64,000 nucleotides of DNA from Polytrichum commune (taxonomy: Eukaryota; Streptophyta; Polytrichopsida; Polytrichales; Polytrichaceae). Location of the stretch: NCBI GenBank assembly GCA_950295325.1, contig OX485805.1, positions 3,286,501 to 3,350,500 of the forward strand. Reading direction: 5' to 3'. Below the pieces are notes generated by a model that was not told the origin of the DNA, did not search any database, and worked only from the letters and a program-made list of their open reading frames with translations. The position numbers and the translations under genes were made by a program. Below are positions 17,396 to 58,780 of this stretch, one piece after another. Within the stretch, counting starts at the first letter, position 1. Every line of letters begins with the position of its first letter.

Positions 17396-18177
17396 TACGT
17401 GATTTTTTCGTTATATAGCGGGCATGTTACTTCCCATACCATGGATTAATGATGTGGGTTGCACAATAGACATGATCACGGTAAATCGTGTCATAATATT
17501 TACCATAATCAATGTACCATGTAGTGAAGAACTTGCCGAAGGGATGGCATGAGTGACATTGGCACATGCATGTGTGGTCCGTCAACAATTTAGTTGTACA
17601 TATTGCACTCTTGAGATTTACAAAAATGTCTATAGTGCATTTCTCATGTAAGAATGTCTAGTATTCCCATCTTTGGAAAGTACTATTGTACATTTTGGAA
17701 TTGTGAAATTTTGAAATGATGAAGGTGAAGGTGTTGTTGTAGTGCCTCCTCCAAAGTTCCAAAACAGTTCATTGTTGGTGACAACATGTTGAGTGGACAT
17801 TGTAGGATTGTCCCAAGACATTCATACATATGCACATGCCCATATTAATGTCCTACATTTGTAAAGGCACTTTAGCTTATGCATTACCTCATATATATGA
17901 AATCAAATGTGCATGTATAAATTGATATGTGCAATTAGGTTCCCCCACACTATTCCACATTCCACACTATTTGACATTCCACACTATTTTGAACATTTGT
18001 AATAACAATAACAAAATACATCATTTTAACTTATTTTTATTTTATCGTGGTTGCAGATATTAGTTTAGACATATACATAGGACTAAATTTTGGGGTGAAG
18101 GATTTGTTATCTTTTTTGCATTGTCATAATAGACACAACATCTAAGTTATGGTTGAAGAGGTGTTGAGTGTGATATA

Positions 18178-18820
18178 CTCGGGGGGGAGGGGTCATTGGC
18201 AAAAATCGTACCAACAATGTGCGATAAAAAGTAGGGTCTAATATATTCATTATAGTTAGATTTTGCAAAAAAACGTACATATAATATAGGGGATTCTAAA
18301 ATAATGAAACATGTTTACATGTAAAACACCATCACATATGATGGCCTCTTTTATCTAGTCAATTCATGTAAAATAGCGTGGAAACAATTACTAGGGGTAG
18401 CGGGTCTAGGGTAGGGTCTGTCCTAGTGGATGGAAAGAGATAATTTTCTGTTGAAAAAACTTGGATGAATTACTTCGCAGGTTGGCTAGCTTGAATGATA
18501 CTAAATCAACGTATCCAATGTGGAGTTAATGTTCTCTACCTACGTGTTGGGAGGGAAAATTCCAGCACATTTGTTTAATAGGCAATCTTCTTTCTAATTT
18601 TCTTTGGCACTATAAGTAAAATAGGGTATTTCAAAATGATTCCCCAAAAAAATTATAATTATTGATAGGGTGTATTAGAATACAAGCATTTACCTTTATT
18701 TTGAAAAATACCATACCTTTTAATATTTTATGCAAGGTAAATAACCCTTTGATATATAGGTCCTAAGCACACGTGTATGCATGAATATAAGAGGGAGTGA
18801 CCCCCCCCCCCCCCCCCGAG
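18178..18820. mobile_element. G-tract TIR element, copy 1
   Basis: The left end is CTCGGGGGGG and then AGGGGTCATTGG. The right end, reverse-complemented, is CTCG, a long G run and GTCACTCCC. The flanks are GTGATATA (18170-18177) and GTAATATA (18821-18828), an 8-bp duplication with one mismatch. The element is 643 bp with no coding frame. It shares the terminal CTCG(G)n and GTCATTGG with the other members. Confidence 0.72.
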
Positions 18821-20651
18821 GTAATATACAAATGTGCATGTATGTGAATGTTAATGCTTGCTTGTACGTATAAATCACAGGGGGTGGACTCTTCATTGGA
18901 AACCTAAATGACATGTGTGGGTCACTATGAAATAAAACTCCCAATATGTGAGAAGTTCAGAGAGAAAACATGTGTATATGTACTAACGGCAGGCTAGAAC
19001 ATGGACTCATGTATTTATATTAAGCTTTTCAAATTGATGTGAAAATAGTCTCCACTAAATATACAAAATATAAATCATGAATTAAATATGCCTTAATCAC
19101 ATGTAAAATCCATGTTCACTTTCTAATGAGAAAGTCAATGAACATTTTTGTCATTCATAGATTGTAACCCAACGATTCCATCAAACAAACATAGACAAGA
19201 GCAAAATAACTTAGCCACAATATGGAGAGCAAAACTCAAGGAAGCCCATGAGCACTCCAAGAGCCTCTAACTTGTCCTATAACCCAAATGCAAACCCTAA
19301 TAAGAATGGACAAGGGAGCCATTGACGATTATTACCATATGATAGCAATGGATGAAAATGTGAATTAGATGGAACAAACACCGACATCTATTGTCAAAAC
19401 TTTCTCTAAATCTTAGGGCACCCTTTTTACATTCACCTTTACTTCAAAAAAAATTAATAACCTTTTCAAATGTACACACTAGAGAAAATTAATACCTCTC
19501 CCTTATGTATACTATATATGGTAATGCCTCAAATAATACCCCTTTTTACACTCACATTAGTTCGTACATGATATGAAGAGTCCACCCCTTGGGTTGTAGA
19601 TGCTATGGTCATGAACGATATGATAAATGTAACAAGGTTGTTACCCATCTTAAACCTTCAATAATCACAGGCACATAGGATGTGTCATGGGGAAGAAACT
19701 CCAACTACCTTGGTCATTTCAAAAGCAATGTGACCGAGGCTTCCATTTGAACTGCTTTCGTTTACATTTTATTTATTTATTCTCATTATATGGGAGTATT
19801 CACACTTCTTGTAATCAATCCTTCCTTCATACTTTATATGGCTTACACCCAAGCCGATTTCACACTGGAAGAGAAGTGATCAATTAATTGAGTTGGGGGA
19901 GACATGTCTTCATCAAAACACCAACCTAATTCACACATCAACCTCGTTATTCAAACATCTATATTTGGGTGCAAAATGGTTCAACATTTTGTTGTAACAA
20001 ATTTTTATTATTTACTACAAGAATTAATACGACACGTCATGGGTTGGGATGGTTGAACAGTCAATATTGAACACTAACCGCTTTAGACACAATTATGAAA
20101 CCCTTTAAGAAGATTGTGTATGTGTGATCTTTGAAGACTTGTCACAGTTTGAGAGACTCACTTTATTTGTCATTCTTATGGCATTGAATTCGTACAAGAT
20201 TTGATGATAAACTCGTTGATCTTAGTATGTCATGACACATTTTCTCAACTAGGTATACAACCAAAAACACACCACAATAACATACACAATATTAAAATGG
20301 TACTCTATCGGGAGGCATTTAGTACAAAGTCAACCTCCGAGGGTTACATTAGCAAATTTAGTTGACGGCTACCATCAACTTGGAACCCTAATCATGCAAC
20401 TTACGAATATGTTGCATATGAAGGGTTGGAATCAGAATGGCGGCACTAGACACTAAACATGTACCCAAAACCACATTGGTTCTTAACTTCTAAGTGCCAC
20501 AAAGTCCTTAGCCGGCTAAATGTGCAGCGAGCAACTCCAAGAATGCATTGTATGGGGTAGATGTGAGGACATACACTCCCGAGTTGCGTATTTCCACAGA
20601 GCACTGACATTCCACAATTCGCATTTCTTTGATTAGTTCACGGATAATGTG

Positions 20652-22379
20652 TCACCATTGTTGAATGTCAAAGTCAAGGTCAAGAATGGAAGGGTTTGGC
20701 GGTGGTAGAACTTTGAGATCCGTTGCCAACTTCAAGAAGACTTTTTTCTTGTGTCTTTGGTTCCTCGCATGAAGAGGGAACGGTAGTACTTCCTTCTCAA
20801 GAAATTCAGAGTAATCCGTAGCACTCACCACTGATGGTAAGGTGATATCTCCCTCCAAGAGCAACACATTAAATCCTGCCCAACATATTTAACTTGTTAT
20901 AGATCACCACAAAAAGTCGTCATCAAGTATTTGGCAACTCATAAATCTCAATCTACAAATGAATTTTCAATAAGTGGTTGTCCAAATTTGTTCAAACTTG
21001 TAACATAATGTTTGTAAGAGACTGAAAACTTGGATCATAAAATCATTTATTTACGAAAGGAGTTGATAACATGGAGACTTCCTTTTGTAAGAATCATTTA
21101 CTTAGGTGTAGGATCGGAGGTTTACCAATACCATAGATTATTGATAGAAAGGAACAAAATATATACACACCCATCAATACCCACCATAATTAACAAAGTA
21201 CAGATTTGGGACTCTTTCCTTTGTTTTGGCAACCCACAATGTGTAACATTCGTAGACATTAATTCCTAAAGTCCCTTGCAAGTAATGCCTAGTTGGAGCT
21301 ACTATATAGGCTAATCCTTAATGCGTTTCCATATGGTCAGCTATATATCTTGCACAGTTGAGTTCATCATATTCATAAGTTTCTATTATTCATGCAATTG
21401 TTTTTGATGTCTGGAATCTAAGCATGTGATCAAAATTCATTGGAAGAATATTAGATATTTTATTGTAAGGTTTTAAAATGTAGAAAACCAAGGCATAATT
21501 TTTTTATGAATCAAATATAGAAAGCATAATGTAATGACAAGATACATTACAAAAGTACAATAATGCCTTGGAATTATGCTAAGGATGAAATTAGGTATAT
21601 AATTTGAATATGGATAATATCTTACAATAAGGAAATGGTCATCTAGTTCACCATAGTCCCATGCCAGTTTCTACAAACCATTGTCAATAACTAAATCTAT
21701 TTCCAGGCGTGCACTCTAAGAAACACAATATTCTATCAAATTCTCATGTTTTCGTAAAAAATAGATTTTCTTTACTATATTGATATTTTAAAATTCAACA
21801 AATCCTAAAGTAATACAATAAACGCTGAAACGGCCATGGTACTAAGGAAGTTGAATTCTTAGTACTCTAGAACTTTCAAATACAATTAATAACCAAGAAG
21901 ATTCTAAAAAGATTTACTAGATTTGCAAAGTTGAATAGAAAGTAGACATTGAGACTTTCATTACAATTGAGATGATCGTCAAAGTGGAATTCAAGCTTGA
22001 ACCATTCTATTCTAAGGGTGTTATCAAGCGCAATGTCCTAGATTATATTTCAGTTGTGGATGCATGCCAAGATCTACGGTGCATATGTTGTTATGTTCGC
22101 AATATTATGCTGTGGATGTTGCCTCTCTCACCAAAGGGGAAGTGGGAGCCAGGAACATGCAAGAGTCCGGTGAGGAGATGCAATAGACTCACCAACATGC
22201 ATCCGATCTTCTTCAGCTGGAGCTGCCTCGTGTTCATGGTTGGCAAGTGTTTGGGTTGTCTCCTCGGAGTCCCCTTCGTCTTCGTGGATTGCGTCGAACA
22301 TTGTCATTGGCCGTGGGGAAGCTGTTGGGTTAGCCAAAGCTTCGTCCACAGCTAAAATTGTGAAGAAGTTGTGGTGCGT
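20652..22379 (-). pseudogene. Broken copy of the unidentified two-exon frame found in copy B
   Basis: This is the paralogue of 29655-30700. Exon 1 (about 22379-22193) has ACG where copy B has its first ATG. Exon 2 (about 20883 downward) ends early at TGA (20652-20654) directly after FDIQQW. Elsewhere the two proteins are nearly identical in VLLLEGDITLPSVVSA and KVLPPPNPSILDLDFD. The donor GGTGAGT and the acceptor GGGCAG are kept. Confidence 0.45.
20885..22010. other. Copy-A-specific stretch, no feature recognised
   Basis: AT-rich DNA with no counterpart in copy B and no supported gene. It would be intronic if the minus-strand frame were transcribed. Confidence 0.4.
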
Positions 22380-22829
22380 TACATGGCCGCCACCTTCACC
22401 GACTCTGCCAGTGTACAACGTCACAATTAAACATGTGTGATGCTTGGGAGAAACTGAAATAGCTAGGTGTTTCCTATGGGCCTTCTACAGACAAACCCGA
22501 TTTATGTTAATTACTGTGTTGACTATGAGTATTTGAGAGGAATCTGGAGCTGGAGCTCACCTTGCAGCCTCCATGATGAATTGGGAGTGCCGGGTGGTGT
22601 ATGTAGCTGAGTGAATTGGGCTCAGTTGTGGGAAATCTTGCAGCTGGGAAACAATTAAAGATTCCGATCAGAATCAGCGCAACGGGCTGGCTGTCAGTAC
22701 GGGTATATACATCCTTCAATACAAATCATCAGCACTCGCTCAGCCTAACTCATACAAATGAGAACCCATATAAATTTTGTGTTCAAACAAGTCTAGCTTG
22801 ATACGGATGTCAATTGTAGGATCTCTGGT

Positions 22830-23045
22830 ACACCAGCAGCGGGGAGTTGGAGGAGCAGCGGGGATTTACAGCAGCAGCGGGGAGTTGGAGGAGGAGCTGC
22901 GATTTACAGCAGCAGTGGGGAGTTGAGCCAGCAGCGGGGATTTACAGGAGCAGCGGGGAGTGGGAGGAGGAGCGGCGCTTTACAGGAGCAGCGGGTATTT
23001 ACTGGGGCAGGTGGGATTTAGAGCAGGAGAGGGGAGTTGAGCGGG
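22830..23045. repeat. GC-rich minisatellite
   Basis: Irregular tandem units built on CAGCAGCGGGGAGTTGGAGG and CAGCGGGGATTTACAG. It is purine-rich on the + strand. The 22847-23080 open frame only reflects the repeat. Confidence 0.8.
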
Positions 23046-23268
23046 GAGTTGAGCCTAGATGTCTGACTACTAGGAACTGATGACATATATATTTCGTTCC
23101 TAGATGTCTGACTAGGAACTGATGTCATAGGTATTCTGCTCCTAGAATCTAACTACCAGGAACTGATATCATATGTTTTTAGTTCCTAGATGTCTCACTA
23201 CTAGGAACTGATGTCATATATATTTCGTTCCTAGATGTCTAACTACTAGGAATTGATGTCATATGTGG
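23046..23268. repeat. Tandem repeat, about 55-bp unit, interrupted by a hAT-like element
   Basis: At least four units follow the pattern CTAGATGTCT-GACTACTAGGAACTGATGTCATAT. A further diverged partial unit lies at 24764-24800, on the far side of the transposon at 23277-24741, so the array existed before the insertion. Confidence 0.78.
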
Positions 23269-23706
23269 GATATACGCAGTGGTGATTTTTCACAAGGTCC
23301 CCAATATGTCCAGGGACATGTTCATAAAAAAAACCTTTCCAGTGGACGGGTTCTTAGAAAATGAACCGGTTTTTGGACGTGTCAAATTGACTTTGGACGG
23401 GTTCTAAAAATAACAATTTTTTTGATAAATTTTTCCAAAAAAATAAATGGTACAAATATCAATTACATTATGTCATATATGACATGTGAATATAAACATA
23501 ATGCAATCAAACCACTAATACCCAATCAAAATATACATCTTGAAGTGCTTGATTCACCTGCATATATTAATTCATCAACCATAAAATTTAGAACCTTTTT
23601 CACATAATGTCAAAGATTATAATTGAAGGTAAACTTAGCAATTTAATAAGAATTAGTATATCCCTAAACATGTTCAAAAATTTAAAACTAAAGAGCTACT
23701 CACCCT

Positions 23707-23928
23707 TCAAAGAAGTTGATGAATTCTCCTATCCTTCATGTTTTTGCAAACAAGCATCACTGCATTCCAATTGATGTTTTCAACTACAATATTTGCACAT
23801 GAAATGCGCATCAAAGCATCTAAAGTCTCTAACTTCAAACTAGCACGTAGATGACTTTTGATTAGGTTTTGTCTAGAAAAACCCCTCTTGTGGAGGGAAT
23901 GCGGGTGGTGACGGACGGGCGATGACAA
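23707..23928 (-). pseudogene. hAT transposase C-terminal fragment
   Basis: The 73-codon frame includes RGFSRQNLIKSHLR, then LDALMRISC and later NWNAV. This resembles the C-terminal dimerisation region of plant and animal hAT transposases (pattern RGFS-N-IK-LR then LDALM-IS). It is a remnant only. Its position inside a hAT-like element with 8-bp duplications supports the call. Confidence 0.6.
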
Positions 23929-23980
23929 GTGATGGAAACACCTTGAGGATAGAGTGTGGGGAAAGAAATTGGAGATTGAA

Positions 23981-24320
23981 CTCGGGGGGGGGGGGGGGCA
24001 GTCATTGGTTGGAGTAGCAATATACGTGCGAACAAATGATAGGGTATTTTAAAAACATGGGGGCAAAAAATTATAATTGGACTTAAGAGTAATATAGGGT
24101 ATCAAAAATGGCACTGGACATCTTTAAAGTACTATAGGGTATGGAATAATAGGTAATTTGAAATTATAAGTAATGCAAGCCATTTTCTATTAACCCAAAG
24201 TAGAAATTTACATAATGATAGCATGTGAAAAAAAGAAGAGAATTGAAAGTAATACCCCCCTATAAAATAGTGGTTGTTCGCACCTATAGCCTTAACTTTT
24301 TAACACACTGCCCCCCCGAG
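23981..24320. mobile_element. G-tract TIR element, copy 2 (nested in the hAT-like element)
   Basis: The ends are CTCG with a 13-19 G run and CAGTCATTGG on the left. The right end, reverse-complemented, is CTCGGGGGGGCAGTGTG. The flanks are AGATTGAA at 23973-23980 and 24321-24328, an exact 8-bp duplication. The 340-bp interior is non-coding and matches copy 4 (57933-58275) in the opposite orientation almost throughout. Confidence 0.85.
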
Positions 24321-24496
24321 AGATTGAAGGACAAGAAATAAAAAGAAATGATGGTGGCAGAGGAAATTAGAATGGGGTGTACTGGAAAGATGAGAATCAA
24401 CAACAAAAGACAGATAACTGATGGGCATTGAAGGCATAATTTGTGAAGATCCTGTTGTTTCCAAGTGCAAACAATCACATGTCAACATGTTTTTTT

Positions 24497-24530
24497 AAAA
24501 TAAAAATAAAAATAAAAATAAAAATAAATT
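24497..24530. repeat. AAAAT microsatellite
   Basis: Five or more AAAAT units in the interior of the hAT-like element. Confidence 0.85.
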
Positions 24531-25309
24531 ACCAACATTGTAAGAGACTTATTTATACGTATTGCGGGATGGGTATTTTCATTTCCAAACCGGTTTTGGG
24601 ACGGGTTGTTTTTTCTTTAACCTTCCATGGACGGGTTGGTTTAGAAACTACCAGTTTTGGGACGGGTGGCAATTTTTTTTGCCTTTCAATTCAAGGTTTT
24701 TGGACGTGGACGGGCAAAAACTTTGTGAAAAATCAGCCTTGGATATACGTACCTTTAAGTTATTCCTAGATGTTTGACTACAAACTAATGTCATATTTGG
24801 GAAATTAATAGTATGAGACAACATGAGTACTTTAGTAATTCCTTCCCAAATCTCAATACTTATAATATGTTAGGGAAGCAAGCATGGTCAAGTATACACA
24901 AACAATGCTCCGGTATATTAAAATCATAAGTTTTTTGGTTAATCCTCTAAAAGCAATTATAGCAAAGTGTTGTTTAAAATGGCAATTCTTGTCATGGCTC
25001 CTTCTTGTGTTAGATATTCAAATATAAAATATGAAAATGAGATCTTCAAAACTTATCATTAAAAGTATTTCTTAAAAGGTGATGGCTATTTAAGGCAATG
25101 ACTATTTAAAAGGCATTTAATTTAATTTAATTTAATCATATTTCAAACAAATTTTAGACAATTACGTGTTAATATACCTACTTGCACATATTTGCACCGT
25201 CTTCTAAAATATGTAGACTTTTCTTAGAAAACATGTTGTCAACATAAATTTCTTCACTTTGTAGATCAATGTGTCTTTCAAATGTTTGTGAAATTCTCCT
25301 TCCCAAAAT

Positions 25310-26310
25310 TTCAAATTTAGTGCATAGTTTTGAATCACTTTCATTAAACCTATCCAAGGTACTGGAGTTGTGTATTTAACTGTGCTTACGCCCGTAGCGC
25401 CTAGTGGAGGGCTATACCTAAAGGAGAACTCTTCTATGAGAGACTACCTTAGTAACGTAAGTGAGTCTTAAATGGAAGCTTTTAGCTTTGCACCCACTTA
25501 TGGTAGGATCTGAAACACACAATTGGTGCAAGATGATCAACAAATCCAAATCATGCCATAGTCACTTTTGTCATTATTTTCAGAGCTCATATGAATCTCC
25601 TATTCATCGTCAAAATGAATTTCTTTGAGTTATTAAATAATTATACATGTCCCCTCAATTATGTAGACTATTATGTTTAGAATGGTTAGTAATATCGGAG
25701 CACATAGTCCAATCTCTTTTTTGGTGTCCGCTCTTAGATTCACACCCAACCATACACCACTAAAATTTAGGTGTCCATGTAAGATTAGAGGCAAAGCAAA
25801 TTTGAGGAACGGTCAAAAGGGACATCCACCATACTTGGAAGGTACGGTGCACATGAATAAAGGCAAACCTGCCTTGGAAGTTGGTATGCAAAAGTGGATT
25901 TTTGTGTTGGTCCAAGTTAACTCACTTCCTTGGACCATACATTCCTTAGTGCATTAGAATATGAATTTGAGGGTCGTGAACCTTGATTATGTAAAGGCCT
26001 TGAGGTTGATTTAGTGGATTAGACCAATCACGAACATGGATTCACACATACCATGTCAAACCCCCAAATTGGTTTTATCTCCCTATGCAAACCAGCCCTT
26101 TATGCCAAAGCAAGGTCCTCATGGAACATGAAATCTCTTTTATTTAAAAAGAGTAAGTCTGCATGAGGCTTAGCAATGTTAGAGAGCACAATTTGAGCTT
26201 GAAAGATACCACACAACAGTTTTAGAGCATGAAAGAACCACCTCCCTCTTGTGAAATTGTACACAAGTTTTTGTGCAAGCCCTTCTTGAAAGCAAGCAAT
26301 ACAAATCAAC
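25310..26310. repeat. Dispersed repeat P (copy 1)
   Basis: Matches 36230-36590 and 48960-49850. Shared landmarks are TTTAGCTTTGCACCCACTTA, GGTAGGATCTGAAACACACA, TTTTCAGAGCTCATATGAA and the AGCACATAGTCCAATC block. The minus strand of 25690-25780 encodes WCMVGCESKSGHQK after a stop. It continues into a second shared part (GGATTAGACCAATCACGAAC; AAGCAAGGTC) that also occurs at 33930 and 49680. No intact protein. Confidence 0.65.
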
Positions 26311-26533
26311 CATGCCTAATATTTTCTTCAATCTGATTGACGTATCAGTTAATGATGTCTAACTTTATACGCCCTCACCCTCGACCCCACCCCCCTAAAA
26401 AATCGTTGGTTATAATATCTCTGCAATTGTCCTAGCCCCAAATTTCAATAATACTATGGAGTTCATCCCTAGAATAATTATGGTCATGATGTAAAATTAG
26501 AATACATGATTTTTTTTATATATAGCGGGCATG

Positions 26534-26791
26534 TTATTTCCCATACCATGGATTAATGATGTGGGCTGCACAATAGACATGATCATTGTAAATCATGCCA
26601 TAATATTTACCATAATCAGTGTACCATGTAGTGAAGAATTTGCCAAAGGGATGGCATGAGTGACAATGGCCCATGCATGTGTGGTGCTTCAACAATTTAG
26701 TTGCACATGTTGCACTCTTGAGATTTACAAAAATGTCTATAGTGCATTTCTCATGTAAGGATGCCTGGTATTCCCATCTTTGGAATACCAC
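26534..26791 (-). CDS. Conserved frame of unknown function ending NPWYGK
   Basis: The 85-codon frame has a Cys/His-rich stretch (CATKLL, HTCMGHCHSCHPFGKFF) and an aromatic tail with DYGKYYG, DHVYC and HIINPWYGK before the stop. The matching stretch of copy A (about 17440-17640) keeps the same frame open with several substitutions, which would be unusual for neutral decay. It may be a 3' exon of a minus-strand gene or a transposon protein. I do not recognise the family. Confidence 0.25.
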   Translation of the reverse strand: MVFQRWEYQASLHEKCTIDIFVNLKSATCATKLLKHHTCMGHCHSCHPFGKFFTTWYTDYGKYYGMIYNDHVYCAAHIINPWYGK

Positions 26792-27326
26792 AAATCATGT
26801 AAGGATGCCTGGTATTCCCATCTTTGCATCTTTGGAAGTATTACTATACATTTTGGGATTGTGAGATTTTGAAATGACGAAGGTGAAGGTGTTGTTGTAG
26901 TGACTACTCCAAAGATCCAAAACAATTCATTGTTAGTGATAACATGTTGAGTGGACAATGCAAGTTTGTCCCAAGACATTTATACATATGCAAATGCCCA
27001 TATTAGTGTACTACATTTCAAAAGGCATTTGAGCTTATACATGACCTCATATATATGAAATCAAATGCGCATGTATAAATTGATATGTGCAATTAGGTTC
27101 CCCCACACTAATGTATTGACATTCCACACTATTTAGAACATTTGTAATAACAGTAAGAAAATACATTATTTTTATTTATTTTTATTTTATCGTGGTTGCA
27201 AATATTAGTTTAGACATATATACATAGGACTAAATTTTGGGGGGAAGGATTTGTTATCATTTTTGCATTGTCATAATAGACACAACATCTAAGTTATGGT
27301 TCAAGGAGTGTTGAGTGTGTGATATA

Positions 27327-27972
27327 CTCGGGGGGGGGGGGGTCATTGGCAAAAATCGTAGAAACAATGTGCAATAAAAAAATAGGGTCTAATATATTTA
27401 TTATAGTTAATTTTTGTAAAAAATCTACATATAATACAGGGGGTTTTAAAATAGTGAAACATGTTTACATGAAAAATACCATCACATATGATGGCCTCTT
27501 TTACCTAGTCAGTACATGTAAAATAACGTGGAAACAATTACAAGGGGTAGCGGGCCTAGGGTACGGTCTGTACTAGTGGATGGAAAGAGGTAATTTTATG
27601 TTGAAAAAACTTGGATGGATGACTTCACAGGTTGGTTGGCTTGAACAATACTAAACCAACGTGTCCAATGTGGAGTTAATGTTCTCTACCTACGTGTTGG
27701 GAGGGAAAATTTCCGTGCATTTTTTTAAATTACAAATCTTCTTTCCAATTTTCTTTGGCAGTATAAGTAAAATATGGCATTTCTAAATGACTCCCCCGAA
27801 ATTATAATTACTGATAGGGTGTATTAAAAGACAATCATTTACCTTTATTTTGAAAAATACCATACCTTGTAAAAAACATTACAAGGTAAATAGCCCCCCG
27901 ATAAATAAGTCTTGAGCGCATATGTATGCTTCAATATAAGAGGGAGTGACCCCCCCCCCCCCCCCACGCAAG
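27327..27972. mobile_element. G-tract TIR element, copy 3 (duplicate of copy 1)
   Basis: The left end is CTCG with a G run and GTCATTGG, preceded by GTGATATA. The right end has a 15-C run and decayed CGAG. It is collinear with 18178-18820, so it arose by duplication of the host segment rather than by a separate insertion. Confidence 0.72.
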
Positions 27973-29654
27973 GTGATCTTCAAATGTACATGTATGTGAA
28001 TGTCAATGCTTGCTTGTATGTATAAATCACAGGGGGTGGACTCGTCATTGGAAACCTAAATGACGTGCGTAGGTCACTATGAAATGAAACCCCCAATATG
28101 TGAGAAGTTCATAGAGAAAACATATGTAGTCGTACTAACGGCAAGCTAGAACATGGACTCATGTATTTATATTAAGCTTTTCAATTTAATGTGAAAATGG
28201 TGTCCACTAAATATACAAATTATGAATCATGAATTAAATATGCCTTAATCACATGTAACATCCATGTTCTCTTTCTAATGAGAAAGTCATCCATGAACAT
28301 TTTTGTCATTCATAGCATGTAACTCAACAATTTCATCAAACAAACATAGACAAGAGCAAAATAACTTAGCCACAATTTGGAGAGCAAAACTCAAGGAAGC
28401 CCATGAGCACTCCAAGAGCCTCTAACTTGTCCTATAACCCAAATGCAAACCCTAATAAGAATGGACAAGGGAGGCATTGAGGATTACTACCATATGATAG
28501 CAATGGATGAAAATGTGAATTAGATGGAACTAACACCGACATCTATTGTCAAAACTTTCTCTAAATCTTAGGGCCCCCTTTTGTGCATCCACCTTTACTT
28601 CAAAAAAATCAATAACCTTTTCAAATGTACACACTAGACAAAAGTAATACCTCTCTCTTATGTATACTATGTCTGCTAATGCCTCAAATAATACCCTTTT
28701 CTACACTCACATTAGTCCGTGCGAGATATGAAGAGTCCACCCCCTGGGGTGTAGATGCTACGGTCATGAATGATATGATAAATGTACCGATGTTGTTACC
28801 CATCTTAAACACTCAAGATTCACAGGCACATAGGATGTGTCATGGGGAAGAAACTCCAACTACCTTGGTCATTTCAAAAGCAATGTGGTCGAGGCTTCCA
28901 TTTAACTGCTTTCTTTTACATTTATTTATTTATTCTCATTTATATGGGAGTATTAACACTTCTTGTAATCAGTCCTTTCTTCATACTTTATGTGGCTTAC
29001 ACACAAGCACATTTCACACTGGAAGAGAAGTGATCAATTGAGTTGGGGGAGACATGTGTTCATCAAACACCAACCTAGTTCACACATCAACCTCATTATT
29101 CAAACACCTGTATTTGGGTGCAAAATGGTTCAACATTTCGTTGTAACCAATTTTTTATATTACTGCAAGAATTAATACGACAAGTCATCGGTTGGGATGG
29201 TTGAACAGTCAATGTTGAACACTAACCGCTTGAGACGTACCTATGGAATCCGTTAAGTAGATCGTGTATATGTGATCTTTGAAGACTCATCACAGTTTGA
29301 GAGACTCACTTGATTTGTCATTCTTATGGCATTGAATTTGTACAAGACTTGATGATAAACTCGTTGATCTTAGTATGTCATGACACATTTTCTCAACTAA
29401 GTATACAACCAAAACACACCACAAAAATATACACAATACTAAAAAGGTATTCTATCAGGATGCATTTAGTACAAAGTCAACCTCTGAGGATTACATTAGC
29501 AAATTCAGTTTATGGCTACCATCAACTTGGAGCCCTTACCATGCAATTTAGGGATATGTTGCATATAAAGGGTTGGAATTCGAATGGCGGCATTGGACAC
29601 TAAACATGTACCCAGAACCACATTGATTTTTAACTTCTAAGTGCCACAAAGTCC

Positions 29655-36229: not shown

Positions 36230-37212
36230 TTGCACCCTAAGATAAATTTCACTTTCATTTAAACCTATGCAAGGTACTAGAGCTATGTACTTAACCGTAC
36301 TTGCGCCCATGGGGCCTGGTGGAGGCCTATACCTCGTCCATGAGAGAACTCTTAATAAGAGAGGTGAGTCTTAAACGGAAACTTTTAGCTTTGCACCCAC
36401 TTACGGTAGGATTTGAAACACACAAATGGTGCAAGATGATTAGCAAATCCAAATCATGCCGTAGTCACTTTCATCATTATTTTCAGAGCTCATATGAACT
36501 TCCTATTCATTGTCGAAGTGAATATTCTTTGAGTTACTAAATGATTATATAGGTCCCCTCAATTACGTTGACTAGTACATTTAGGATAGTCATTTAGGGA
36601 TATTGATATAGTCGGAGGAAGATAGTTGGGCGGAATGACACACATATCTAAGCAGGTTTTGCTCTTCGAGAGGCGTGTCATTGGTTTCTCCATTCTTTGC
36701 GGCCACACAAGGTTTCAAACCAAATTTTGACCTCGACTCAGTTACACTAATCCTTCCAAGTATGGTGGATGTGCCTAATTCGATCTTTGATCTTAAATGG
36801 ACACCTAATTAATATTTGAGTGGTGTATGGTTGGGTGTGAATCTAAGCGCAGACACCAAAAAGACATATGTTGGAAAAAAAAGAGATTGGACTATATGCT
36901 CAAAACTTGTCGAGAAGAAGTCTATGGGAGGCAAACCAGGGTTCTGGCCTTTGGTGAGGCCACGTCGCTAGTTCGAAACCTTGAAAACGTCGTAAATCTA
37001 CCAATCCTTAACTATCCTAAATGTACTAGTCAACGTACTTGAGGGTACCTATATAATCATTTATTAACTCAAAGAATATTCACTTTGACCATGAATAAGA
37101 AGTTCATATGAGCTCTGAAAATAGTGACGAAAGTGACTACGGCATAATTTGGATTTGCTAATCATCTTGCAACAATTGTGTGTTTCAGATCCTACCGTAA
37201 GTGGGTGTATTT
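36230..37212. repeat. Dispersed repeat P (copy 2) as an imperfect palindrome
   Basis: 36390-36590 and 37010-37209 are inverted copies of one another. The first runs from GCACCCACTTACGGTAGGAT to TACATTTAGGATAG and the second runs back. Between them, 36600-36900 is an inverted copy of 49360-49610. The + strand of 36827-37042 therefore carries the WCMVGC and HQKDICW frame seen on the minus strand elsewhere. Confidence 0.65.
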
Positions 37213-45524: not shown

Positions 45525-45526
45525 TA

Positions 45527-47132: not shown

Positions 47133-47178
<46 letters not shown>

Positions 47179-48960: not shown

Positions 48961-49850
48961 GTTCTCCTTAGATGAATTTCACTTTCATTTAAACCTATGC
49001 AAGGTACTAGAGCTATGTACTTAACAATGCTTGCACCCGTGGGGCCGGTGGAGGGCTACACCTCGTCTATGAGAGAACTCTTAATAAGAGAAGTGAGTCT
49101 TAAAAACTTTTAGCTTTGCACCCACTTACGGTAGGATCTGAAACACACAATTGGTGCAAGATGATTAGCAAATTCAAATCATGCCGTAGTCACTTTCGTC
49201 ATTATTTTCAGAGCTCATATGAACTTCCTATTCATGATCAAAGTGAATATTCTTTGAGTTAATAAATGATTATATAGGTACCCTCAAGTACGTTGACTAG
49301 TACATTTAGGATAGTTAACAAGTTTTGAGCACATAGTCCAATCTTTTTTTTCTTTCCAACACATGTCTTTTTGGTGTTTGCGCTTAGATGTACACCTAAC
49401 CATACACCACTCAAATATAGGTGTCCATTTAAGATCAAAGCCCGAATTAGGCACATCCCCCATACTTGGAAGGATTAGTGTAACTAAATCGAGGTCAAAA
49501 AATTGGTTTGAAACCTTGTGTGGCTGCAAAGAAGGGAGAAACCACTAACACGCCTCTCAAAGAGCAAAACTTGCTTAGACTTGTGTGTCATTCTGCCCAA
49601 CTATCTTCCTCTATTTTATCAATTTCTCTTTAGTGCATTAGAGCCTTGTCTCCATTATATAAAGGCCTTGAGGTTATTTTAGTGGATTAGACCAATCACA
49701 AACACGGATTCACGCATGTCATGTCAGACCCCCAAATTAATTGGCCTTGGCTCCCCATGTAAAGCGGCCCTTAGCGCCAAAGCAAGGTCCCCATGATACA
49801 TGAAATCTCTATTATTTAGAAAGAGTAAGTCCGCATGAGGCTTGACAATG
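48961..49850. repeat. Dispersed repeat P (copy 3)
   Basis: The longest direct copy. It runs from AATTTCACTTTCATTTAAAC through GCACCCACTTACGGTAGGAT and AGCACATAGTCCAATC to AAGCAAGGTCCCCATGA. The minus strand of 49284-49529 is an 81-codon frame with FEWCMVRCTSKRKHQKDMCW. It runs straight into repeat X (49860 on). Confidence 0.65.
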
Positions 49851-50227: not shown

Positions 50228-50313
50228 ATCATTCTCCGGAACTACTATTCATAACATCACCATTCACCAAAAGTATTAGCTTTATTCATCCTAACAATGT
50301 TCACTTTGCATAT

Positions 50314-52584
50314 ATGTGAGCCCAAGATTTTGCTCACATGTGGACTTGGCTTAAAAAATAGCAAAACCTTAGAATTAGCATTTGCTTGAGTTAGTTAGAA
50401 GGATCAAAAAGATTAGAAGCTTCAAAGTTTAGATAGAATTGCATTAAGGGTTTCAAGTTTAGGAATAATTAAAGGAAAACAACCAAAAATAAGTAAGTAG
50501 TTTCATTTGGGGTTTAAGTATGTGAAAGGCCAAGTGGCTAGAGGCCAAGGTTATTGTTCATTTTGGGGTGGGGGTCCTCTCGAATGTGGATGACGCTCTA
50601 GAGGCAGAAAACAAGGGAGATGGCGGAGGCGCTGCTGGGGTGTGCACCGGACTCTTGGTGTGCGGCTTGCAAGGCTGGGGGATGCTCTCGGAAGGACGTC
50701 GGTGCTTTCGGGTGAGTTGCCAGTGGTAGGGAATGTGCGGAAGGGAGGGAGAATGTGAGAAGAGGGTGGTGGGCGGAGGTGAGGCCTGGTCGCAGCTTCA
50801 ATCTGCAGCTTGGGGAATGTGAATTTTCAATGACCAGATGTAGGGGGATGAGGTAGAAAGGCGAAGCGAAGGTAGCAGAGGAGGCGGTTTGGAGAGAGAA
50901 AAAACGGCGACTTGCGGAAGGAGCTCTGCTTAGGCAGAAATCCCCTTCGAGTTGAGCGAGACAAAATTGCAGAGGATGGAGATGGTTGCTTGAGGGTGAG
51001 CAACTCTATGGGAGTTGTGGAAGCTCCAATGCCGTAGAAGACAAGAGTGCTGGAATAGGTGAATTCACAGTGCGGCGAAGGACTGAGTTGCGAGGCGGGG
51101 TAGCAGTAAGGTGGAGTGGAGTGAGTAGTGTGGGTGGCAGCGATGGAGGAGTTCCTGGAGCGAACCGAGAGGGAAGAAATAAGTTGGGCAGCAGTGGCTC
51201 ACGTGAAGAGGAGACAAGATGCGCTAGTGCCCTAGATTCAAACAGCTACGAGGCCCCAAATGCTCACATGGAGTGCCTAAGAAACTAGGGAGGGTTGTTC
51301 AAATTCGGTGATGAGAGCACGAGATGGCAGTTCTCTCGGACAGTCGTCCGAGCATTCCTCTGTAAGCTCTTCGAGTTCATGTCTGATGTTAGCATTGGCA
51401 TTACAGTGTTTCGGATGTCTTTACTAATACTGAGGCCGAGCGATGGAAGAGTGAGCGCATGGTTTGCCTCTCCACATGCCGCATTGTGTTGAGATGCCTC
51501 GTGACGGAGGTATGCAAGCAATGACACAGTAGATGTCAGCACTTGGCCACTCGACAACAACCTGTAACCAAAGACTGCTGCCTCCAGCAGATCTGGGAAC
51601 TACATCCCAATTGCAGAACTCAATTGAACGTCAAGTCAACACTTCCAGCGTCGTCGACTAAGACCCCCTGGACTCCGATTTTGAGGTAGAGATTACACCT
51701 ACAGTCTAATAAAATTCTAAATTGCCTCTGAAGGGGGCATTGCACGTCTGTTGGACAGCCCTGAGGGCAGATTCTCGGCAACTGTCGGTAGCCTAGGGAG
51801 GTGTTGATGTTGGTGCGCAAGGAAAAGGTGGAACGAAGATAATTTGGTCGGCTCATGCCGAGGAGGGAATGTTGTCGAGCTGGGGAGTGAAGGTGAAGGT
51901 GAAGGTGACAACGCTTGCGGCCGCTAATTCCATGTGAGTTGACTCTCGAATAGTGGAAGGAGAAACAGGGTTGAATCTTGAATATCGGGACTTGGAAGAG
52001 TTACCTGCATGGAATGGGGTTGTGTTCAAATGCCGGATTTTGCTGAGACAGGAGAAGTCATTGTGTTTAAGGGGAGTCGGGAGAGCTCCAGTGCATGGCA
52101 GGCCAAGGAAGGAAGGTCTAGCAGAGGGGTGGCTGATTGGAGCTAAATGCCATGCCTGGAAGCAAGCGGAGCCTGAACTTGGAATTAGTAGCTGGTGGAT
52201 GGTAGATGGTAGGAAGTGTTTATTTGGGTGGTGTGAATTGATTAGTTGATTTGTAGTGGGAAGGTTGGCTAAGCCGACTGTTTAACTCGGCGTTGGTTTA
52301 ACCCAAACTTAGGATAACTCATTTTGGTAGGGTTTAGGGTTTAAGTGTGGTGTGTTGAAGACTTAATAGGTGAGGGTGTTTGGCAATACCCACAAGGGAG
52401 AAGAGCATTTCTAAATGCTCGTAACCTTGTTTCATTTTGAGTAAAGTTGTGTGTGTGACATTCGTATTGTTGGAGCATTGGTGTTGCGTTCCAATGGCTA
52501 AGTAAGGTCAATCAAATACATGTAAGTTGTAGGCTTCCACCCGGACTACAACGCATAAGGGTGGAGATTTAGGGCTGAAAATAT
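50314..52584 (+). mobile_element. LTR-like element L3 (TGTGAGCCC family)
   Basis: TGTGAGCCCAAGATTTTGCT starts at 50315 and the family 3' motif CACCCGGACTACAACGCATA lies near 52540. CATAT flanks it at 50309-50313 and 52585-52589, with one extra A at the left end and a changed right end. Copy X supplies the empty site. The interior is GC-rich at 50580-51700, with ORFs (50986-51288, 51285-51560) that have no family signature. TAGGGTTTAGGGTTTAAG near 52330 is telomere-like. No retrotransposon protein is seen in about 2.27 kb. Confidence 0.65.
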
Positions 52585-53479
52585 CATATTTTTTAAATCG
52601 CTTTACAAACACCTTAGAGCACGTCCTAATTGGAATAATTAGTGTACTATTCTACCCTCCATTCAACACATGAGGCAAATATTGTGGACTACATCTAAAA
52701 TACGTTCACATTGAATAAATCATGCATTACATGTTGATGGTGATTAAGAATTATTACCATATTTATTTAATTTAAATGGAATATAAACTTATTCCTAGAC
52801 TATAAAGTTTCAATCATTACAGTTGCTCCCTTCATTTTAGTCTTTTGGGATATCATGGGTCACACTTTTGAGCTGCTCATGGTAAATTTACAATAATCTG
52901 TAACACTGTAGACCCATCACACAATATTTATCAAACTTCATTGTGGGTTTCATCAACATACACTTGCTTCAAAAAAGCCAACCATGAAACAACCTAAGCA
53001 GCTAGGAATGCAAAATCAATCCCGGTAGGTTTGTGATTCCAACTCCCAACCTCAAAAAGTACTGAGAAAGTGCATCTTTCATAACAAGTGTGAGTAATCG
53101 TGAATGTATGAAAGGGGTATTAATATGAATGTTGTCGTATTCTGTAGATATATGCTACATAAATTGTAGCTTGTAGTTATGTACATGTATGAAGGATCTT
53201 TAGAAAGTATGCAACACTTGTACTTGCATGGTTGTGTCACAAGACTTTATGGGATAAATATTTAATGTTGGATGAAACTAGGACGAGCAAATCTCTCATT
53301 TCTTTATCTCATCCTTGTATGTATGGAAGAGGCAATATTAGGGTTTTGGGAGGGGTCGTTAAGTTGAGAACGAGGGCACTTCTTGCAAGAGGAATGGATT
53401 GCCCATGTTTTGTGTCAAGCCCATCTCTTTGAGGTGGGCCCTAGGACCACTTTACATTATGGCCAAGGTTGTGATCATG

Positions 53480-54042
53480 CACGGGTAGGTCACTTAGTGC
53501 ATTTTAAAAACGACGTGCGGCATAATATAGAGAGGATTAAAATCATTTGAAATAAAAATTATAAAGGAATTCCAAATAATGAAGGGGCCATTAAATGTAG
53601 ACAATCCCATTATAAGTAAGTTAGATGGACATAAAATGTGGGCCATTATTTTTTTGTAAAATTAATATAGGGGCTGAAGATAAGGATCCTAGAAGGTATG
53701 TTTTGTATGTTTGCTATGGTCTCCTATGTGTTTTCTTCATAACTTTGTTTGCAATGATATTATTGTTTGCACCCTTCTTTGTTTCCATGGTTTCCCTTAA
53801 CACTCGTCAATGCGTTAGGAAGTAGATTAGCTTTTATTACTTAAAAGGAATATAGAGTACAAAAAATTGCAATGACTTGGACAATATAAGTAATGGAAGG
53901 GTGCAAACAAATGGGCCATTTTTGAAATTTAAGTAATTATAGGGAGGCTTTAATTCAGCCCTTGAAGGTAAATAGCCCCAAAACAGAAAAAACCCCCAGC
54001 CGCACGTGGTGCACAAAAATGCCTTAGAGTGACCTACCCGTG
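53480..54042. mobile_element. TIR element with exact 8-bp duplication TGATCATG
   Basis: The left end is CACGGGTAGGTCACTTAG. The right end, reverse-complemented, is CACGGGTAGGTCACTCTA. The arms stay similar for about 40 bp (to ACGTGCGG). TGATCATG flanks it at 53472-53479 and 54043-54050. The 563-bp interior lacks a transposase. The 8-bp duplication suggests a hAT-like superfamily. Confidence 0.8.
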
Positions 54043-54050
54043 TGATCATG

Positions 54051-54885
54051 AAATCACGAGGGCCCTTGAAACTCGTATGGAAGTTGTAAAATAACTTTAT
54101 GATATTTCTACCTCTTCGCGGATGTGCAAGAGAAACTTTATGCCACCATGTATGGTAACATTGGTGACTTTCATATATACATCATATAACATACTCGAAC
54201 CTTGGCGTTTAAATGTGATCCATTGATGGACATTGTTGCTACACTAATTATCCCAAATGTTTCACTCCGAGATGACCCTAAAGTACTGGATGAATGTGGA
54301 GAGGTATCCAAAACCAAATGGAGTGGTTGGTAGTTTCATTCCATGCACTAGAAGGAATCATGTCCAAATCGACCCTCCTCTGCGGTAATGGCAGGGTCTG
54401 TGTCCACTGCCATTCTGACTAAAACACGCAGTTTAACTGCCGGCACCACTACAATTTGGGTATATGTCAGCAAATGTTGGGTGTAACTTGGTTTAGATGG
54501 GTGACGGTTGCGATGTCAACCTGGACGGTTGACTGCCACCGTTTTGGTAGCCTTTGGGTGGCGTTCTTTGTGCATCGGTGTAGATAGGTTTTTAGATTGG
54601 GTTCCAATTAAGAAAACCACACAGGGAAGGCCAAATGAGTGTCAGGTGTTGCATCTAGGGATCACCATTGAGTTAATTGATAGATTACAAGAGAATTAAG
54701 ATGTATTTAGGACAACAAACACAGGGAAAAAGACTTCTAGAATGAGTTTTAGGATTGATTTAATTAAGGTTGAGGGTCACTCACAGCAGTACATGCAATT
54801 GATCAGTCACTCCCTCACAACCCACTCTCATCAGTAACATCACTCTTATAATGTGTTTTGCAATTCAGGGAGTCACAGCTCAGCC
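54051..54885. other. Intergenic, no feature recognised
   Basis: No gene, RNA or delimited repeat. A 63-codon frame at 54508-54699 has no family signature. Confidence 0.35.
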
Positions 54886-55400
54886 ATAGACATTTGAGTA
54901 CGCCATAGTCTCAGAAACCCAAGGCAAAAACTCCTTGAGGTGAACCATAGTCTCTTCAGTAAAGTAGCCAAGTATCGAAAGGCCACACCACAGTCAGTAA
55001 GGATATTATGTTCACAATTGACTCCTCCTATGGTTAAGTGATGGATTTAATTAAATTAGTTATAGACCACAGTAATGAATTATTTCCTTAGTCAGTTTTA
55101 GACTTAACACTATCTCAATGGAATTGAATGCATTAAAATAAATTATTAAAATTAACAAAAGTCTAACGTGTGACAGAAACCTAGTGACCGAGTCTAAGCG
55201 AAGCGAACTGAACCGGACCGGGACCGTAAGAGTCTAATCGGTAGGACCATAGTCTGCACGGCACGGCCATAGTCTAGTCACCAATAACAGTCACAAGTAA
55301 CCAGTGTCAAGTCACGTCTCATAGAGAGGGCCATAGTCTTAGTATCCAGTAACCAGTAACAAGTAGCCAGTAACTAGTAACCAGTAACCAAGTCAGCGTC
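54886..55400. repeat. Cluster of CCATAGTCT and CAGTAACC motifs
   Basis: CCATAGTCT occurs at about 54905, 54946, 55245, 55265 and 55331, with a near match at 54894. A short-period array of AGTAACCAGTAAC-type units fills about 55335-55395. Spacing of the first motif is irregular, so this is not a simple tandem array. Confidence 0.6.
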
Positions 55401-57240
55401 TTGTTCTCGGCTAAGGAGCAGGCTGCTCCTCCTTTTATGCTTGCCTTTGAGTGCTCCCCCTAACGATATGGGTTAAATACCCACGCTTCTCCCGCGACTC
55501 CTTCCTTTTCAGTCTTCACTCCCGCGCGCGCGACTTCCTCTCCGATCGGCCACATCTACGCTTTTCGTTCCCCCTCTTCGCAATTGGCGACAAGTTTATC
55601 ACAGCAACACTTCTTCCTTTGAATGCATTTGAGCTTATCCACATCATTATGGTGAGTAATCACTACACCGATTCCGTGCATCAGACAAAGTGCTTCGACA
55701 GAACAATCTTCGCACTCTCTCTCAAGGTGATAATTGCTACTACCACTTAGCAAACTCCATCGCGGCAAACTTTCAGAGCCTCATTACACCTACTCACTCG
55801 ACACTTAATTCAGTAGTGATTTCCACCGACGAATCTCTACTCTGAAAACATAACGTTGTTATCCGTTTGGAGTTACAGACAAACTCTGTGTGGACAGGTA
55901 TTTTCCTTCACTCAAATAGCACCTTAGTTATCAAATGAGTATGTTATCTAAGGATTTGACTTCAAGATATCTTCTATACTGAATTCATCTCGAGTAATCT
56001 CCACTACTCTCTTCCCTTTGGCTGATGAGTTTTCGACACTGGATTTTCATTCTGATCGAGAGTTCGACTTCAATCATTCACGGTAAGTTAACCACGACCA
56101 TCACAACCATGAAAGGAAGGGGGTTTGCTCACTGAAATAAGTTCTTGCATTCAATTAAGACACTTATCACCTCAGGCGTCCAGACACACTTACTTATTTG
56201 GCTTGGAGTCTCCTGATTAAATTTACAGAATTAAGACATAAAGTGGCTCTCACGGAATTTCACATTCCTCATTCCACTCATGCACATAGATAAGCCCAAA
56301 GGATATAATATGGTTAAACTGCTTCGCACAGTTTCACCTCAGACAATCACAAGACAAAGGTAAATAGAATTCACTTCTTTCACCGATGTTTGATTTCAAC
56401 TTGCACCTGTATAGGAATTTCCAAAGAGAAGACAGGATGTTTCTCAAACTTCTACCCTGAATTCACATCAGATAGAGTGGGATTAATCCAATCAATTCTC
56501 ATGGCCGAATACACACTGAAGGGACAAATTTCACATTCACCCGATGACGACATGATGAGTTCACAATGCGAACTTACATTTCCATTACCGGGAGTGAATC
56601 ATAAGACACGATTTACAATCTTCAATAGGCTTCACGCCAAGAGTAATTAAACAAGGTAGACTCCAGCAACTGTAGAGAGATTGTCTCTCCCTTCCCGAGA
56701 GGACCACTACCAATCAATCACGTTGGAATTTCACATTCAAACCCGGTGACTGATAGACTTTCACCATTGAAATCACACGACAATTAATTTACTTCTTTCA
56801 CAGAAGTAAGACGTCGCAACTTCACTCTGGATTCTTCCCGAAACCAGGAAATATACTCTGACTCAATTAATTCACAACGTATACCCACACAACAAATTCA
56901 ATCTTCTCACATAGAATTGACAAAATAGCTTCACGCTTATATTATGTAGAGTAAAATGTACATTCAAAAGGGCTTCACACCCAAGTTAGACTCGCTCAAA
57001 AACTGCAAGACGAGGGAGACTCTCTTTTCGAGAGGAACTCCCTTCTCCTCCCCCTCTTCTCCTCTATATCCCCTGAACTAGCTTCCTTGCCTCTTGGGGC
57101 CAGATTTCATAAGTCTCTTCGACTTGGTCACATGTCTATTGCCCTGCCCAAAAGACTCTTCCTCTTGGAACTGTTTCATATGAACTAAATGTCTCACCCT
57201 TAGCTCATTTCGGATAATTGATCACTAATAACTTACTTTA
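55401..57240. other. Unusual TTCAC-rich stretch without a gene
   Basis: TTCACATTC and TTCACTTC-type strings are dense. A block near 56640-56710 (GAGAGATTGTCTCTCCC, CGAGAGGA) recurs in diverged form near 56970-57045 (GGGAGACTCTCTTTTCGAGA). Both can form short hairpins. It could be an LTR or an internal non-coding part of an unidentified retroelement. Confidence 0.35.
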
Positions 57241-57932
57241 GTGTCCATTTCACATTGCAAGTGTCGATATGAATTCACATCCTATCAAAATCCTAAAATG
57301 ACTATTCTGAGACCAAAAAGTTGTACCACAATCGGGTTTGGGTTTTGGGCATAGGGTTGCAAGCGGATTGGCGTTCATCGGTTGCACAATGCACTGCCGA
57401 GGGTGGCCACCATATGTGGGTGGCTTGGCACCCGTGTTGGGTGTCATTGGCGCCCCCCGGGGCATTTGTATATTGGCCATTTCCTCTCCTTTCCCTTGAT
57501 GGGCTTGTACTCTCCTAGGGTGTCTGCTACCTAAGCATAACCCGAATTTCCCAAGTGAACGGGTTTTTGCACAAACATGAAGTATTGTTCAATGCAAAAC
57601 CCTAATGTGGGAGGGAACAACATTTGTCTTTACACACAGAAGCTTTGATCGTGACCCTGGTTGCCTCATATTTGTGGGTCTAGACCACAATGGGAGATGG
57701 CGACTGCAAGCCCACTGATAACTGCAATCGCCATGACCATGGGGGGGACTCGCATCCGCAATGCGCCTCCTCGACATCAAGAACCACGCTCCATGCGCAA
57801 GTCCGTGGTTTAAGGGCGTTCCCTGCACACACAGAGGTCGCTCGCACAATTGCTTCCATGCGCAACATGTGTGGAACCCATGGGCGTGCGATTGTTGTAA
57901 GTGCCGTCGATACAGGTGGAGCTTCCATGGTT

Positions 57933-58275
57933 CTCGGGGGGGGGGGGAATGTGTTAAAAAGTTAAGGATATAGGTGTGAACAACCACTATTTTATAGGGG
58001 GGTATTACTTTCAATTTTTTTTTTTTTTTCACATGCTATCATTATGTAATTTTCTACTTTGGGTTAATAGAAAATGGCTTGCATTACTTATAATTCCCAA
58101 ATTACCTATTATTCCATACCCTATAGTACTTTAAAGATGTCCAGTGCCATTTTTGATACCCTATATTAATCTTAAGTCCATTTATAATTTTTTGCCCCCA
58201 TGTTTCAAAAATACCCTATCATTTGTTCGCAAGTATATTGCTACTCCAACCAATGACTACCCCCCCCCCCACGAG
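57933..58275. mobile_element. G-tract TIR element, copy 4
   Basis: It starts CTCGGGGGGG, and the other end, reverse-complemented, is CTCGTGGGGGGGGG followed by TAGTCATTGG. CCATGGTT flanks it at 57925-57932 and 58276-58283, an exact 8-bp duplication. The 343 bp match copy 2 (23981-24320) nearly end to end in the opposite orientation. Confidence 0.86.
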
Positions 58276-58780
58276 CCATGGTTTAGGGCTATTCATGTCG
58301 GCACGCCGCAACTTCGATTCAGAATTGAACCGCGGGATTCTCTTTTTGGTTGTGTAGGTCACGTGCTTTCATATATTGCGGTGGTTTAGGTTTGTGTGAT
58401 TTTTTCACATGTTCCATACCGGAGTTCGATTTTGTATTGGCATCTTTGGATTCTGAACACTATCATTTGTGGTTTTAATTTTTTGCTTTTCAATTATTGT
58501 TGCACGGCACATCCGTCCATAGATTGTTGTCGGAATTATGATTTGGCATGAACCATCTATCATCTAGCTCCTCACATCTTCGCACAATCTTGTGCGAGGT
58601 CCAGTCCATTGCCACTCATTGTGCCCTTGGCACAAGAAATTTCCCGAAAAAAAACGGCGTTTCAATTGGGCCAATGTGTCTTCAAAGCCAACATATGCGG
58701 ACTAGGCAACCAATTCCCCACGTCACGCTCATTCAGGATTATCAACACATAATTTCGTCCTTGGTGTTCGACATGCCGTT

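Follow-up and report, generated by a model that had tools for sequence, protein, structure and literature searches.

A 64,000-nucleotide stretch of the Polytrichum commune genome (contig OX485805.1, positions 3,286,501 to 3,350,500; the window) contains members of several families of miniature inverted-repeat transposable elements (MITEs), among them copies that begin with CTCG and a long run of Gs. These MITEs are probably relatives of large elements that carry a gene for a DDE transposase of ~1,400 to 1,500 residues resembling that of the P superfamily, the G runs being a later expansion. A first-pass annotation of the window had described four of the elements, noting that the 8-bp duplications fit hAT-like transposition, although CTCGG is not the usual hAT end, and suggesting that the homopolymer could form G-quadruplex ends or act as a length-variable transposase site.

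High-copy families flanked by 8-bp target site duplications

The assembly comprises 407.8 Mb in 64 sequences, seven of which are 42 to 78 Mb long. Queries of 343 and 643 bases drew 1608 and 1204 first-look candidates genome-wide, both rough figures with 40 candidates scored in each case. The pattern CTCGGGGGGGN{0,14}GTCATTGG matched the genome 542+502 times, compared with 0+0 for its reversed control, and CTCGGGGGGG matched 1644+1644 times, compared with 382+369. The four window elements belong to high-copy families.

We tabulated flanking 8-mers, as the first-pass annotation had suggested, starting with the 340-bp family. Our sample of 35 copies consisted of the best 20 of 39 other scored matches, the first 13 C1 pairs of CTCGGGGGGG lying ~340 bp apart, and two window copies. 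Internal motifs anchored 33 of these (L018 and W58 were missed), and all 33 were flanked by an 8-bp target site duplication (TSD), exact in 26 copies and with one mismatch in 7. When the flanks were shifted by 1 to 4 bases, 0 of 33 matched at 7 or 8 positions, and swapping flanks between copies produced 2 matches in 1056, both attributed to L015 and L016, one insertion assembled twice. The unanchored L018 and W58 have flanks matching at 7/8 and 8/8 positions. The duplication stops at 8 bp, as no more than 6 and 12 of 33 copies have a next base equal to that at the element edge, and the duplicated 8-mers have no strong consensus. The interiors of this family differ from their consensus by 1.6% on average.

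For the 640-type family we scored 22 copies (the best 20 of 38 others scored and two window copies) and found duplications of 8/8 in nine, 7/8 in four and 6/8 in three. The 640-type copies are older than the 340-bp copies. Pairing of terminal sites also yielded longer elements of 831 to 6,816 bp, several of them composites with nested copies. All seven outer elements have their own TSDs, six exact and that of L081 7/8, and nested insertions have clean TSDs as well (AATTTACA in L083, CGATTAAA in L082 and CTTTGAAA in L085).

Large coding elements and their probable derivatives

L086 is a 1308-bp element with an open reading frame (ORF) of 120 codons, for which no Pfam match was found. A genome search with this ORF returned at least 150 matches among 1097 candidates, and a diverged version of it led to other copies with longer frames, located in large elements that we refer to as C2, C5, C1 and C6, and in L117 on C4. 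The C2 element measures 7,655 bp and the C5 element (L111, 452-7118) 6,667 bp. Three of four further 1308-type insertions (L101/L102, L104 and L105) have an exact TSD.

The 640-bp family is 82% identical to the C5 element over 420 bp at one end and 86% over 189 bp at the other, and 85.5% identical over 414 bp to the left end of C6, which carries a transposase gene; on its sequence, C5 is a shortened relative of C6. L086 is 96.3% identical over 1061 bp to the transposase-bearing L117, whose right end is CTCGGGGGGGCACTCCC. Having ends and interior in common with coding elements (82 to 96% identical where aligned), the 640- and 1308-bp families appear to have arisen from such elements by internal deletion. 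Both have ends in common with a coding element and no transposase of their own, which is what defines a MITE.

Two candidates were set aside. L081 (6,816 bp), considered as an autonomous element, is really a 640-type copy (its outer ~273 and ~345 bp match) with an insert of ~6.2 kb; this insert contains PIF1-helicase-like ORFs and is possibly a Helitron. L101 and L102, considered as independent insertions, lie in a repeat of at least 9.5 kb that is 98.5% identical between two chromosomes, and the 1308-type copy inside was amplified as part of that repeat, so that the two do not count as independent. Seventeen further places with ORF2 scores of 201.0 to 201.3 bits suggest that the repeat was amplified recently. 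ORF2 itself, initially treated as a separate gene, more probably encodes the C-terminal portion of the transposase; this region has no Pfam family match. Inside the C5 element, an ORF at L111:2379-3077 (minus strand) has HxD...H spacing and a weak 2-oxoglutarate (2OG)-Fe(II) oxygenase match (E 0.033, below cut-off). Dioxygenase genes on DNA transposons have been reported in fungi, according to the part of PMC12730594 available to us.

A transposase with P-like catalytic spacing

The transposase gene of C1 is readable in a single frame, interrupted by 8 stops in 575 codons. A genome search with its core listed 83 matches (76 of 295 candidates scored), nine of which have stop-free frames of 1,493 to 1,549 codons and are 55 to 58% identical to the core. 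We aligned five cores, namely, those of the stop-free L118 to L120 and the broken ones of L117 and C1. The motifs AED, SDG, QDxxH and GSDxxExFF are invariant, the acidic residues are spaced D-117..120-D-42..47-DxxH-188..195-E, and a further acidic residue 102 to 106 positions after DxxH is D in four cores and E in L120.

The P transposase signature is described as D230, D303, D339xxH and E531, with D444 also essential; the equivalents in hTHAP9 are D304, D374, D414, E613 and D519 (PMC8230255, seen in part). The DxxH-to-E distance of 188 to 195 in the five cores compares with 192 in DmTNP and 199 in hTHAP9, and the distance from DxxH to the later acidic residue, 102 to 106, with 105 in both proteins. 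From the D...D...DxxH...E spacing, we read the transposase as P-like; profile or structure searches gave no confirmation.

Domain searches placed the protein in no other family. The cores have no match to the hAT dimerization domain PF05699 or to the KDZ transposase domain, and a genome-wide PF18758 search, run without a working control, was empty. A genome-wide search with PF21787 was also empty, but its control was silent too, so that it is uninformative. No THAP domain, a type described as confined to animals, appeared among the Pfam matches of the N-terminal pieces submitted. One scan for viral relatives confirmed none.

Terminal blocks and G runs

In the 340-bp family, both ends consist of CTCG plus a G run of 7 to 23, with at least 15 Gs in 20 of 66 ends. 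The first-pass annotation had described the two ends as mutual complements. This is right for CTCG and the G run, but inside the run the left end continues with (T/C)AGTCATTGG and the right end with AGTGTGTTAA, not GTCATTGG. Across families, the terminal inverted repeat (TIR) follows the block C(T/A)(C/T)GGG(G/T)AGGTCACT and derivatives of it. The C5 element has CATGGGGAGGTCACT at each end, and the 640-type block CTYGGGGAGGTCAYT matches the genome 102+93 times, with 0+0 for the reversed control. Because these C5 ends, the 640-type block and a fifth window element (see below) together point there, the older terminal block appears to be GGGGAGG.

The 22 640-type copies have 44 ends, of which we dropped two (right end of L023, right end of L039) and tabulated the block by hand in the other 42. 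The interrupting base is kept in 22 ends and gone in 20. Runs of more than 7 Gs occur in 10/20 uninterrupted and 3/22 interrupted blocks (Fisher p 0.019, which is only a guide because related copies are included). Left and right run lengths in the 340-bp family are uncorrelated (-0.05), and the runs of L015 and L016 are one G apart in length at one end and equal at the other. The G runs thus appear to be secondary. They are most simply explained by slippage once the interrupting A had been lost, an effect from which sequencing error in run length is inseparable here.

A subterminal candidate transposase site

In seven representative elements, which cover the 340-bp family as well, 13 of the 14 ends have an inward-pointing ACGTGCG (at most one mismatch) 34 to 45 bases from the terminus, compared with 21/492 interior windows and 109/2800 shuffled ends. 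The motif was picked after viewing the same ends, so this support is overstated, and one of the two L027 ends was cut one base too short. The position of the motif slides with the length of the G run. In P elements, too, the transposase has an internal site immediately interior to the TIR (PMC7776569, in the part available).

Elements and surroundings in the window

The four elements of the first-pass annotation, at 18178-18820, 23981-24320, 27327-27972 and 57933-58275, were all found at these positions, as were their 8-bp flanks. The first (plus strand) is a nonautonomous 640-bp-family element of 643 bp with G runs of 7 (left, followed by AGGGG) and 17 (right), 87% identical to L027 over 625 bp. 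Its left TSD, GTGATATA (18170-18177), matches the right copy GTAATATA (18821-18828) at 7/8 positions. The element at 27327-27972 (plus strand) is its segmental-duplicate copy, with a decayed right end (CTTGCGTGGG); the right flank of the W27 copy, GTGATCTT, is less well matched (6/8). As had been proposed, the two are duplicates of each other: both lie inside a segmental duplication, the unit at 17390-19846 (plus strand) having its partner at 26497-29000, ~9.15 kb apart. The scan for this duplication covered 17000-29000, and the unit may extend further. L021 and L030 (C3:1.99-2.05 Mb) have flanks like those of the 18.2- and 27.3-kb copies, and, judged by duplication and flanks, all four look like one insertion event. 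The first-pass annotation had counted three independent insertions with 8-bp flanks; the flanks are present, with the 18.2-/27.3-kb pair counting as one event.

The 340-bp-family element at 23981-24320 (plus strand) has the left end CTCG-G(n)-CAGTCATTGG and the right end CTCGGGGGGGCAGTGTGTTAA; it is 97% identical to L091 and flanked by an exact TSD, AGATTGAA (23973-23980 and 24321-24328). The one at 57933-58275 lies in the opposite orientation (minus strand), with the right end CTCGTGGGG..TAGTCATTGG and an exact TSD, CCATGGTT (57925-57932 and 58276-58283). A BLAST search of the window with nine family representatives returned a fifth member of 563 bp at 53480-54042 (minus strand), which shares 97.9% identity with the nested element of L083. 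It has a perfect 15-bp TIR, CACGGGTAGGTCACT, no long G run, and an exact TSD, TGATCATG (53472-53479 and 54043-54050). A subterminal ACGTGCG at 53513-53519 (plus strand), position 34 from its end, is a candidate transposase-binding motif. CTCGGGGGGG occurs six times in the window, with 0.04 expected.

Other features of the window include two adjoining tandem arrays at 22791-23290, with units of ~19 bp (GC-rich) and ~45 bp, and pieces of a 3'-5' exonuclease (DNA_pol_A_exo1) gene at 3777-5850 (plus strand), apparently with introns between them. Three stretches of ~97 bp (36406-36501, 37097-37195 and 49131-49226) resemble a portion of C5 (L111) at 72 to 73% similarity and probably represent another repeat. 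No Rfam families or tRNA genes were found in the window, and the protein pieces compared included none diagnostic of plants.

Discussion

The model that we propose is one of nonautonomous cut-and-paste elements, at least two families of which would have arisen by internal deletion from large elements (6,667 and 7,655 bp in the two measured). The transposase would bind ACGTGCG plus the TIR, cut at the CTCG/CAYG end and insert the element by 8-bp staggered strand transfer, as in P elements, which produce 8-bp TSDs (PMC7776569, in the part available). The same transposase may also mobilize the 340-bp family. Loss of the A from GGGGAGG would leave a run of 7 Gs, which could then grow and shrink by replication slippage, each end independently.

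A number of observations weigh against this model. Among the large elements, C2 has no TSD; the flanks of C5, ACGTGAAC and ATGCGAAC, match at 6/8 positions and its transposase core region is missing; the comparison with C6 covered its left end; and the left end is missing in L117 and C1, with no intact parent among those read. The nine stop-free copies are 55 to 58% identical to the core. The first-pass annotation had called for a search for a longer member with a transposase, and coding relatives were found for the 640- and 1308-bp families; for the 340-bp family no coding parent was found, and its link consists of the ends, the TSD size and ACGTGCG only. That annotation had also named copies lacking flanking duplications as evidence against a transposon family. 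There were none among the 33 anchored 340-bp copies, but the script found no 8-bp duplication in 6 of the 22 640-type copies, and L106, a rearranged 1308-type insertion, has no TSD. Three interrupted terminal blocks carry the runs of more than 7 Gs counted above.

The transposase itself also departs from P. The gap between the first two acidic residues is 117 to 120 in the cores, compared with 73 in DmTNP and 70 in hTHAP9 (~47 extra residues), and that between the second and DxxH is slightly longer (42 to 47, compared with 36 and 40). Pfam searches with the five cores at E of up to 10 gave nothing significant and no P family (best, DUF2760, E 0.19), and a PDB sequence search gave chance-like matches only (best, botrocetin, E 0.028, and BCCIP, E 0.11). 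Two AlphaFold models were of poor quality, with mean predicted local distance difference test (pLDDT) scores of 33 and 44. The first 16 of 237 Foldseek matches to the pLDDT-44 model were RAG1 and Mos1, not P, and these were weak (best E 0.031, probability 0.16). This list fits a DDE/RNase-H enzyme, at the level of a predicted model, and points to nothing firm.

It is quite conceivable, although on balance unlikely, that the transposase belongs to a new superfamily, or to a named one without a Pfam model (e.g., Novosib), and has only the general DDE architecture in common with P. The lack of meaningful matches in Pfam and PDB (E up to 10), the ~47 extra residues, and the C-terminal ORF2 region without a Pfam family would all suit such an origin. 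However, the order and spacing of DxxH...E and of the later acidic residue are close to those of P/THAP9, and the 8-bp TSD and the site inside the TIR suit P too. DxxH-type motifs occur in several superfamilies. A more far-reaching proposal, which we regard as unlikely and put forward speculatively, is that these giant DDE transposons form a superfamily of their own, so far undescribed, whose kinship with P is limited to the catalytic signature, which has apparently been active recently, and whose G block is a slippage-prone repeat that alters how far the cut site lies from the binding site. The signs of recent activity are the nine stop-free frames of ~1,500 codons and the 340-bp MITEs averaging 1.6% from their consensus. 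If this proposal is true, MITEs of this superfamily would be classed as hAT by TSD length alone.

That the elements are hAT MITEs with unusual ends, moved by a hAT transposase of the same genome, is improbable. An 8-bp TSD is usual for hAT (PMC12730594, as far as available), the genome holds candidate enzymes (150 Dimer_Tnp_hAT matches scored among 1060 first-look candidates), and hAT is one of five superfamilies to which plant MITEs are assigned, largely by TSD and TIR (PMC12550479, in the part consulted). We read 40 of the 150 listed hAT loci ~2 kb downstream and found no CTCGGG or CACGGG string at any placed end. Two hAT groups terminate in CAGAGCCC and CAGTGTTGG, the alignment of the pair L044/L080 stops at GCCTAA, and the end of a fourth group was not reached. 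Short CTCGGGG or CCCGAG strings do occur in several of the loci read, and in L058 a 640-type copy lies past the hAT element. By coordinate comparison, none of the 150 listed matches lies inside the parent loci L103/L110 and L111-L117. We therefore did not retain hAT as the mobilizer: the ends in the 40 loci read are unfit, and the linked large elements carry a P-like transposase. Of the original proposal, the cut-and-paste family with 8-bp TSDs was upheld by the 33 anchored copies; its hAT-like transposition was not.

A functional role for the long G runs, as a length-variable transposase site or a G-quadruplex end under selection, seems to us doubtful, even though runs of 7 to 23 occur at both ends and many are long. 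Relatives with short runs (53480-54042 and L027) have clean 8-bp TSDs, left and right lengths are uncorrelated, and the runs behave like an expansion of GGGGAGG that accompanies loss of the interrupting A, so that the homopolymer as functional terminal repeat was not borne out; selection may nevertheless act on a minimum length. We consider it very improbable that the runs or their lengths are assembly artifacts. Homopolymers are error prone, and the two assemblies of one insertion, L015 and L016, differ by one G. However, CTCGGGGGGG far exceeds its reversed control in the genome, and the runs lie exactly at the element ends with clean TSDs outside.

The ends, with about 4 to 23 Gs, form a natural series in which to study how much variation in the distance from cut site to binding site a transposase can accept. 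An 8-bp TSD readily leads to a MITE being classed as hAT, and because the ends studied here lead to a different transposase foreign to Pfam, the lineage may sit hidden under the hAT label in annotations. The part available of a review of land-plant TIR superfamilies lists six, Tc1-Mariner, hAT, Sola, MuDR, PIF-Harbinger and CACTA, with P not among them (PMC9033089); a P-like lineage, if confirmed, would be an addition to these. In the part of the literature covered, no paper on poly-G termini or plant P elements was recognized as describing the present family.

Comparison with known systems

C2 contains a fragment of a MULE transposase. Because it is on the opposite strand and 94 to 98% identical to a separate MULE family (L108 and L109), we regard the fragment as having inserted into C2 from that other family, and rejected MULE as the mobilizer. 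The MULE at L108:3497-6259 has terminal inverted repeats of 233 bp (96% identical) and a 458-residue MULE transposase frame. The KDZ group (Zisupton/Kyakuja/Dileera) is similar in the 8-bp TSD of Zisupton (PMC12730594, as far as available) and in that one element here has a possible 2OG-Fe(II) oxygenase ORF (E 0.033). It was rejected since nothing of KDZ was found in the cores; the genome search was empty, but its control was silent. Like hAT MITEs, the elements have an 8-bp TSD and short TIRs, but their ends are CTCGG, CACGG or CATGG, in contrast to the CAG ends of two hAT groups in the same genome, and the parent transposase is not hAT by Pfam.

The P superfamily (the Drosophila P element, THAP9 and zebrafish Pdre2) differs in several respects. 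The gene described here is longer (~1,400 to 1,500 codons), has no THAP domain or P Pfam match found in it, and has a longer gap between its first two acidic residues; the elements, where measured, span 6.7 to 7.7 kb, compared with 2.9 kb, with a 15-bp TIR block and G-run ends. What the two have in common is an 8-bp TSD, short TIRs, a transposase site inside the TIR (a candidate here), many internally deleted copies, and a D...D...DxxH...E signature with ~190 residues from DxxH to E.

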